Source of the DNA: Paludibacter sp.
Lineage (GTDB): Bacteria > Bacteroidota > Bacteroidia > Bacteroidales > Paludibacteraceae
NCBI GenBank assembly: GCA_020049515.1
Contig: JAIFKQ010000012.1
Location: forward strand, 1 to 45,438
Direction of reading: 5' to 3'
DNA: 45,438 bases
Both the position numbers and the translations under genes were made by a program. The notes under the pieces were generated by a model. That model saw nothing but the letters and a program-made list of their open reading frames with translations, had not been told where the DNA came from and did not search any database. Position 1 is the first letter of the stretch. The number at the start of each line of letters is the position of its first letter. Below, piece by piece: positions 1,172 to 21,417 of this stretch.

Positions 1172-1765
1172 TTATTTTTTTTTCTTTTTAATGGCATCTC
1201 TAATGTGTACAGCCAATTCGTATTTTTCGTCCACTACGGCCAATTCGAGCATATTTTCTAAAGCATCCAACGAAAAAGCATCTAAGTCATCCACTGTAAT
1301 ATCTTTATTTACAGTAGTTTCTGTTAAGTTTTCATTATTAACATCGGCTACAGGTTCAACTTCGGTACCAACAATATTCAATATCTCCGATTTAATATAA
1401 ATAGGACAATCAGACCTCACCGCCAAAGCTACAGCATCGGAAGTACGTGCATCGACTATAACTACTTTATTTTGCTTTAAAATATGAAGCTCTGAATAAA
1501 AAACATCATTCACCATATCGTAAATGACCACCTTTTGCAATTCGGCATCAAATACATTCAAAATACTTTTGATTAAATCGTGTGTCAGTGGGCGAGGTGA
1601 TTTTTTGTTATTCATTTTCAGTGCAATAGACTGTGCTTCAGGCTCTCCAATCATCACCGAAAATCGTCTATTACCATACTCCTCACTCAGCACGAGACCA
1701 TAAGTCCCTACAACCGTTTGATTATAGACTAAGCCTGTTATCGTTAATTTTATTTCAGAATTCAT
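1172..1765 (-). CDS. DUF151 bifunctional nuclease (BFN) family protein with C-terminal UVR motif
   Basis: A 197-aa protein with a BFN/DUF151 domain (about residues 1-135). Recognisable parts are VGTYGLVLSEEYGNRRFSVM, the segment IGEPEAQSIAL, and DARTSDAVALAVRSDCPIY. The last 30 residues (LENMLELAVVDEKYELAVHI, then RDAIKKKKK) form a UvrB/UvrC-type motif, a helical hairpin used for protein contacts. This two-part architecture is standard in Bacteroidota. DUF151 proteins have been described as nucleases or stress-related factors, but a role in this organism is not shown. The ATG at 1765 starts at the conserved domain edge. A TATATTTG box on the minus strand lies 74 bp upstream (1839-1846). The lysine-rich tail at the very end is notable but common. 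Confidence 0.85.
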   Translation of the reverse strand: MNSEIKLTITGLVYNQTVVGTYGLVLSEEYGNRRFSVMIGEPEAQSIALKMNNKKSPRPLTHDLIKSILNVFDAELQKVVIYDMVNDVFYSELHILKQNKVVIVDARTSDAVALAVRSDCPIYIKSEILNIVGTEVEPVADVNNENLTETTVNKDITVDDLDAFSLDALENMLELAVVDEKYELAVHIRDAIKKKKK

Positions 1766-19862: not shown

Positions 19863-20027
19863 GTAAAAAATGTATGCTAGTAAAATTTTTTTTGAAGTGT
19901 AGAACAAGATATTAACAACACCAGCAATTCATTTTAACTATACTACATTGAAGGAAAAAACTAACCCTAGTTTTATATTGTTAACAAACCTAGCATGCAA
20001 AACTGTGTTTTTCGTGTTTTATGAGCT

Positions 20028-20061
20028 AAAAAAAAGCGTCTATATAATTTATATAGACGCT
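20028..20061 (-). terminator. Terminator of the truncated tRNA-Ser unit
   Basis: A perfect 13-bp stem (20035-20061, AGCGTCTATATAA arm, one-base centre) followed on the minus strand by a run of eight T residues. Confidence 0.85.
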
Positions 20062-20078
20062 CTAACTAGCTGATTTAC

Positions 20079-20151
20079 TGGCGGAAGCTACGAGATTCGA
20101 ACTCGTGGTACGGTTGCCCGTACGTCAGTTTAGCAAACTGGTGGTTTCAGC
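20079..20151 (-). pseudogene. 5'-truncated tRNA-Ser(GCU)
   Basis: Reading the minus strand, the sequence runs from the D-loop (CTGAAACCACC) through the rest of a tRNA-Ser. The anticodon loop TTGCTAA has its GCT anticodon at 20132-20134. A long variable arm GTACGG-GCAA-CCGTAC follows, then the T arm ACGAG-TTCGAAT-CTCGT, the acceptor 3' strand AGCTTCC, discriminator G and an encoded CCA. The matching 5' acceptor strand (GGAAGCT) and the 5' half of the D arm are absent. The outer anticodon-stem pair is a C-A mismatch. Directly in their place is a complete promoter (TTTG - 20 bp - TATCTTTG), and a terminator follows, so the fragment is probably transcribed. It cannot form an acceptor stem, so it is unlikely to be a working tRNA. 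Confidence 0.85.
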
Positions 20152-20182
20152 AAAGATAGAAAAGACTTTTCAATTAGCCAAA
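20151..20182 (-). promoter_or_regulatory. Complete promoter abutting the truncated tRNA-Ser
   Basis: On the minus strand TTTG (20179-20182), a 20-bp spacer and TATCTTTG (20151-20158). The box ends exactly where tRNA homology begins (D-loop), so transcription would start inside the tRNA remnant. Confidence 0.7.
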
Positions 20183-20316
20183 CCATTTCTTTTATTTCCA
20201 TTTTTTTATTTACAAATATAATTTTAAAGAATAGACTTTCTGTATATTAGACTTGAAAAATGTAATAAAAATAATTGCTTTTTGTTTCTACTTTTATTAA
20301 TGTCAAAACTTATGCT

Positions 20317-20361: not shown

Positions 20362-21417
20362 ATGAAAATGACTAAAAAACAAACAAATCACACTAATTAT
20401 TTGAAAAAGTACATTAAATGGACTGTATATCTATCCATTAGCATTTTTGTTTATTTGGCATATATATTATTTATGCCAAATATTTTTACCAAAGCTGGTG
20501 AGAAGTCATATTTATGTATCCCAGATAGCAGTTCCTTTGGCGATGTGGTAAATTTATTGGAAAGGGAATCTAAAGTAACTAATACATTGGCTTTTAAACA
20601 AGTTTCGATTTTGCTTCAGTATAGTGAAAAGATTCGTTCTGGACGTTACGAAATTAAATCGGGCATGAATAACTTTCAATTAATTAGGATATTGCGTAGT
20701 GGTCGACAAACCCCTGTAAAGCTTTCCTTCAATAATATACGCACAAAACAGCAATTGGCAGCGAGATTAGGAATGCAATTGATGGCCGATTCTACTAGTA
20801 TTCTAAATTTGTTAAATGATTCTGCATTTTTGTCATTGTATAATTTGAATCCAAACACTTCTATTTCCCTTTTTATACCCAATACCTACGAAGTTTTTTG
20901 GAACATAACTGCAGAAGAGCTATTTTCAAGGATGAACAAGGAATATTCTGCTTTTTGGACTGATGAGAGAAAAGCCAAAGCAGCAGCTATTCCATTAACC
21001 CAAACTGAAGTTAGCTCGTTAGCATCGATAGTAGAAGAGGAAACTAATAATAAAACCGACCGCCCAATGGTAGCTGGACTGTATATCAATCGATTAAGAA
21101 TTAAAATGCCCTTGCAAGCTGATCCTACCGTAAAATTTGCTTTGGGTGATTTTAGCATTAAGAGGATACTTTTTGGACATTTACGCACCAATTCTCCCTT
21201 CAACACTTACCAAAATATTGGTTTACCTCCCGGACCTATCAGAGTGGCTACTTCCAATGGTATTGATGCAGTACTAAACTATAGCCATCACAATTATATT
21301 TTTATGTGTGCTTCCGAAACGTTAAATGGGGAACACAAATTTGCTGTATCGTGGGAAGAACACAAAATAAATGCTGCAAAATACCAGAAAGAACTCAATG
21401 TTAGAAAAATATTTTAA
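20362..21417 (+). CDS. mltG: Endolytic transglycosylase MltG (YceG-like)
   Basis: A membrane-anchored enzyme that cleaves nascent glycan strands and so ends peptidoglycan chain growth. The 351-aa protein has a short cytoplasmic tail and one N-terminal helix (about residues 17-38). A LysM-like periplasmic region follows, then the YceG catalytic domain. The active-site glutamate is E225 in SLASIVEEETNNKTDR. QADPTVKFALGD and GLPPGPI are the other hallmark motifs. The frame opens earlier (TTG at 20275), but that part overlaps the -7 box, so the ATG at 20362 is used. It is divergent from the truncated tRNA-Ser unit. Confidence 0.94.
   Translation: MKMTKKQTNHTNYLKKYIKWTVYLSISIFVYLAYILFMPNIFTKAGEKSYLCIPDSSSFGDVVNLLERESKVTNTLAFKQVSILLQYSEKIRSGRYEIKSGMNNFQLIRILRSGRQTPVKLSFNNIRTKQQLAARLGMQLMADSTSILNLLNDSAFLSLYNLNPNTSISLFIPNTYEVFWNITAEELFSRMNKEYSAFWTDERKAKAAAIPLTQTEVSSLASIVEEETNNKTDRPMVAGLYINRLRIKMPLQADPTVKFALGDFSIKRILFGHLRTNSPFNTYQNIGLPPGPIRVATSNGIDAVLNYSHHNYIFMCASETLNGEHKFAVSWEEHKINAAKYQKELNVRKIF

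Follow-up and report, generated by a model that had tools for sequence, protein, structure and literature searches.

At one locus of a Paludibacter sp. draft genome, a tRNA-Ser(GCU) gene lacking its 5′ part stands between a promoter and a terminator, which raises the question of whether the truncated gene encodes a new small RNA, is the remnant of a deletion or of an integration event, or is a product of the draft itself. We analysed the whole 45,438-nt stretch of DNA that contains it (the window) alongside the rest of its own assembly and the genomes of relatives. We consider the truncation to be an error of the draft assembly, the gene being intact in the living cell, with a probability of roughly three in four.

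Read directly, the minus strand carries 73 nt of a tRNA-Ser(GCU) gene, starting at GCTGAAACC in the D-loop and ending at the encoded CCA; it includes the anticodon GCT, the long variable arm and the T arm and lacks both the 5′ acceptor strand and the 5′ half of the D arm (Table 1). This bears out the original prediction, which had placed such a fragment behind a promoter and before a terminator. The TTTG-20 nt-TATCTTTG element, which we take from its consensus to be a promoter of the Bacteroidetes type, abuts the fragment, the last G of TATCTTTG immediately preceding a GC shared by the two sides of the joint. The terminator had been described as a 13-bp hairpin with a T run; hairpin and T run stand, and the stem scored as 14 pairs around a 3-nt loop. 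ARAGORN called no tRNA in the window, and the fragment falls short of a functional tRNA-Ser(GCU), whose cloverleaf is complete and has both an acceptor stem and a D arm. Rfam at gathering scores gave zero matches over the whole window. Seven matches obtained with relaxed E-values between 19750 and 20360 all fell below the gathering score and were discarded as tRNA-like resemblance, the best being to a plastid 3′UTR family on the strand opposite to the tRNA part.

Table 1 Features at and around the truncated tRNA-Ser(GCU) gene, in window coordinates.
Feature	Coordinates	Strand	Basis or remark
tRNA-Ser(GCU) gene fragment, D-loop to CCA	20079..20151	-	direct sequence read; 71/71 nt match to relatives
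Promoter of the tRNA gene, TTTG-20 nt-TATCTTTG	20152..20183	-	also upstream of the intact gene in relatives
Intrinsic terminator, hairpin and T run	20033..20063	-	terminator scoring; same hairpin in the fold
Probable prophage-end footprint	19991..20032	-	holds a 29-nt stretch identical to relative G023
mltG-like gene (Pfam YceG)	20362..21417	+	divergent from the tRNA gene; conserved in relatives

A 611-nt region was searched against 60 genomes, its own included, and was matched in 53 of them. Most of the tRNA part was matched in 34 of the 35 same-genus relatives; G009 gave a weak match only, apparently to a different tRNA-Ser. ARAGORN called an intact tRNA-Ser(GCU) at all 18 of the same-genus loci L006-L023, and another same-genus locus, L005, holds a displaced attachment-site fragment. 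A scan of the genome_contigs set, whose loci are partly the same as these, found 25 stretches with the 71-nt core of the gene, with the 5′ half within 75 nt in 24 of the 25; the 25th (L180) is cut off by the edge of the fetched sequence but is intact as L020. Many relatives have an intact tRNA-Ser(GCU) gene that is identical to the fragment at 71 of 71 nt, so the fragment is not a chance resemblance. The upstream flank is about 70% identical to that of relatives, as against 71 unchanged nt in the tRNA part; a long-dead gene would have drifted, so these unchanged nucleotides speak for an intact gene in the cell.

The mltG-like gene was present in 9 of the 15 relative stretches compared with the window proteins, divergent beside the tRNA gene in all nine. 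The fragment sits where a Paludibacter-like genus normally has its tRNA-Ser(GCU) gene, divergent from an mltG-like gene, and the locus shares with the canonical gene of Paludibacter relatives its location, promoter, divergent neighbour, 71 nt and terminator. Unlike the window, the relatives carry 36-43 additional nt of 5′ region between the promoter and D-loop joints (28 distinct loci, 38 or 39 nt in 18 of them, counting only loci that fit both the promoter and the D-loop pattern and excluding the others). The junction is therefore a clean loss, with 2 nt (GC) common to both sides, and agrees with the deletion originally proposed, which joined the promoter's TTTGC to the D-loop at the shared GC. 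The exact junction pattern occurred in 1 of 48 genus genomes, the one studied here, in a scan that detects this particular joint rather than any truncation. The comparison with close relatives that had been suggested as a check thus found the same locus intact and the truncated form in this genome only.

tRNA-Ser(GCU) reads the codons AGC and AGU, and 29 window genes, picked from the list of open reading frames, use AGC or AGT 230 times. The assembly to which the window belongs comprises 2.80 Mb in 202 contigs and is 82.75% complete, about 17% of the genome being missing; a search for an intact tRNA-Ser(GCU), the other check that had been suggested, found no further copy in it. An Rfam tRNA search of this genome returned at least 31 matches (150 of 216 candidates scored), and ARAGORN, run on 30 of the 31 places, called 26 intact genes with 24 anticodons. 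By comparison, 53 tRNA matches exceeded the cut-off in the complete congener G016, whose tRNAs cover 39 anticodons; of these 39, 15, tRNA-Ser(GCU) included, were not found intact in the studied assembly. A joined query of these 15 absent tRNAs recovered the window fragment at 100%; for the other 14 it revealed no clear further truncated gene in the assembly, as 22 of its 23 rows look like cross-matches to known tRNAs or short chance matches. The share of anticodons not found, 38%, exceeds the roughly 17% of the genome that is missing and suggests a preferential loss of tRNA loci, although this smaller genome may genuinely lack some of the 15.

Two further RNA-like sequences were seen in passing in the same assembly. 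At 51747-51820 of contig C177 (L075 1501-1574, minus strand), near the contig end, lies a tRNA-like sequence that scores 28.9 bits and was not called by ARAGORN; its arms carry CCGAT/ATCGG repeats, and it resembles a mutated tRNA-Val. At 14425-14533 of contig C163 (L077 near 1501-1609, minus strand), likewise close to a contig end and with no gene called by ARAGORN, is what we presume from its final T arm to be the 3′ end of a tmRNA.

Two other truncated tRNA genes came to light in this assembly, both with a CAT anticodon: one, presumably of elongator type, on contig C87 (G000:C87:19829; near 1501-1576 of L074), and one, presumably of initiator type, on contig C166 (G000:C166:1548; near 1501-1560 of L076). 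By similar general criteria we take a third CAT gene, on C79, to be tRNA-Ile2. Both L074 and L076 break off in the T arm and continue directly into their terminators, with roughly 33-46 nt lost between. The L074 locus was matched in 48 of 48 genus genomes and the L076 locus in 46 of 48 (the studied genome included); ARAGORN called intact genes in the fetched relatives at both the elongator (9/9) and the initiator (9/9) locus and made no call at the studied genome's own. At the elongator locus, the word AGTTCA occurs in both the T arm and the terminator, 33-37 nt apart, in four of the nine fetched relatives, these being the four that fit the search pattern and all carrying the repeat, and the L074 joint sits at this word. 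L076 is missing about 41-46 nt relative to the five of nine relatives whose terminator arm could be placed, and no repeat was demonstrable at its joint. A technical deletion is expected to be accompanied by similar losses elsewhere in the same assembly, at loci that are intact in relatives, and L074 and L076 are such losses.

Because three comparable losses in one living cell are implausible, a fault of assembly or amplification explains them best. The original prediction had listed an assembly deletion among its alternatives, and with two other indispensable tRNA genes comparably damaged in the same assembly it is now the preferred explanation. About 38 nt, starting immediately after the promoter and extending to the 5′ half of the D arm, would have been dropped from the draft; they are most probably present in the living cell, and we infer that reads would show an intact gene. 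Assemblies break at conserved tRNA sequences common to co-occurring species, and sequence can be lost where joins are made at such places; stretches rich in hairpins are liable to deletion in amplification. The likely cause would be either a wrong join, made at conserved tRNA sequences while reads were assembled or gaps closed, or a deletion across hairpins during DNA amplification, and the technical step that failed would be one of these. The truncated molecule would, on the assembly-fault reading, be functionless.

Several observations do not sit easily with a fault of the draft. RNase P RNA, considered as a further damaged structured RNA, was dropped from the list when it matched its full model; this match, the lack of N bases in the window and the open reading frames of the examined genes adjoining the tRNA fragment show that damage is not general, which counts against an assembly fault. 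The lack of a demonstrable repeat at the initiator joint and the mere 2 nt shared at the serine joint count against it too, and a repeat joint such as that at the elongator locus is also expected from real slippage in the cell. Elsewhere in the same genome, L044 contains 13 consecutive N bases, such as either scaffolding or masking could leave. Our literature search found no paper on exactly such tRNA-locus losses in metagenome-assembled genomes or by amplification chimeras. The available passages of the tRNAscan-SE 2.0 paper report more than 100 bacterial genomes in which fMet, Met or Ile2 went unpredicted, of which 43 may be assemblies that are incomplete or contain errors (PMC8450103). Those drafts resemble the present one in that indispensable tRNAs are absent or broken; they differ in that three loci are present here with internal losses, and these passages describe no joint of this kind.

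The main rival is a very recent and real slippage deletion, which would have left a tRNA pseudogene in the cell while the intact tRNA-Ser(GCU) went unassembled or lies on an unbinned element. This is possible, though we think it unlikely. The roughly 17% of the genome that is missing could hold such a copy, the clean joint sharing GC suits a deletion, and the unchanged remaining sequence also suits a very recent event. Against this, no second intact tRNA-Ser(GCU) was seen among the 35 same-genus relatives, apart from contig-end duplicates in G027 and attachment-site fragments in G023 and possibly G010. Moreover, each of three indispensable tRNA genes would require an unseen backup. We give very little credence to a wider version of real loss, in which all three truncations reflect decaying host tRNA genes, an unassembled replicon or element supplies the tRNAs, and transcription of the serine fragment, its promoter and terminator intact, yields a closed tRNA-like molecule that has a 5-bp GCUGA/UCAGC helix in place of the acceptor stem.

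The truncated gene had been put forward as a tRNA-derived small RNA, retained with its intact promoter and acting as a tRNA-like decoy for serine-tRNA-binding proteins. Promoter and terminator are indeed intact, the strand folds better than 200 of 200 shuffles (z = -5.98), and the GCUGA/UCAGC helix can close the predicted fold. However, promoter, arms and terminator belong to the normal gene and so give no argument for a new function. The intact gene of a relative folds well too (z = -3.78), and the UCAGC comes from a trailer that stands behind tRNA-Leu(CAG) as well. The truncated form is not conserved, being found in a single incomplete assembly among the 48 genus genomes, and the comparable damage to two further indispensable tRNA genes there counts against a decoy. 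A retained small RNA thus finds no positive support, and we regard it as highly improbable.

tRNA-Ser(GCU) is an integration site for prophages or islands in this genus. In G023, Phage_int_SAM_5 proteins adjoin the tRNA 3′ half or the same element end; G008 has a similar gene start, seen as sequence only. Stretches in these two genomes where integrase genes adjoin a tRNA-Ser(GCU) 3′ half or an element end include L090 4429-4590, L100 1870-3433, L101 2472-3820, L096 1-1300 and L041 1834-2300. In G023, L096 also holds a shorter displaced tRNA-Ser 3′ piece (1257-1296), followed by a terminator, about 1.2 kb from the element end; an integrase frame is missing there among open reading frames of more than 150 aa, perhaps reflecting a decayed element. 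The same tRNA-Ser(GCU) sequence occurs on the IMG/VR contigs L184, L185 and L186, adjoined by a Phage_int_SAM_5 integrase in L185 and L186 and present as a displaced fragment in L184. Viral contigs scanned for the window's upstream flank and for its element end gave 0 and 0 matches, and four matches in phage records showed tRNA-Ser-like similarity only.

In the window, the 29 nt beyond the terminator that are identical to G023 lie, in that relative, between terminator and integrase gene. Judged by this similarity, the 3′ flank beyond the terminator is probably a prophage-end footprint, and no integrase was found beside it among the window's open reading frames. Elsewhere in the studied genome, on contig C128 (L040 2374-2427), a trailer and terminator 79% identical to the window's stand behind tRNA-Leu(CAG); no integrase was evident by eye beside them among three open reading frames of 100 aa or more. 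The trailer and terminator are a tRNA-trailer module shared within this genome, on C128 apparently without an integrase. The idea of an element-specific trailer was accordingly dropped in part: since a similar trailer follows tRNA-Leu(CAG), only the stretch beyond the terminator stays element-specific.

That prophages and islands integrate in tRNA genes is a known principle, set out in the available text on Islander (PMC4383910). As far as the available text on Islander and TIGER2 (PMC9580842) describes such elements, the locus resembles them in its tRNA, a tyrosine-integrase target, and in a 3′ flank like an element end; it differs in that the fragment, behind its own promoter, begins in the D-loop instead of at the crossover region, and in that no integrase adjoins it. 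An attachment-site remnant, another of the original alternatives, thus fits the locus as an integration site of the genus and fails to explain the truncation. In G023, displaced fragments are preceded by element DNA, lack the gene's promoter and begin no earlier than the anticodon arm, whereas the window fragment retains its promoter, its mltG-like neighbour and the D-loop. We rejected a displaced attachment-site piece left by an integrated prophage on this anatomy, and its chances are negligible.

A split tRNA, with the 5′ half encoded elsewhere and joined in trans, would suit the perfectly conserved 3′ part but is just as hard to credit and was rejected, since a search of the 82.75%-complete assembly for the genus 5′ half at 3 mismatches gave 4 places against 8 for a reversed control, and every intact relative locus is contiguous.

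The findings call for caution: a truncated tRNA gene in a draft can look clean and promoter-driven and yet, as here, most probably result from a technical deletion, which comes to light when the remaining tRNA genes of that draft are inspected. For the genus, tRNA-Ser(GCU) as a prophage integration site is an ordinary but useful annotation. Were the truncations real, they would make a notable case of host tRNA genes replaced by another element.
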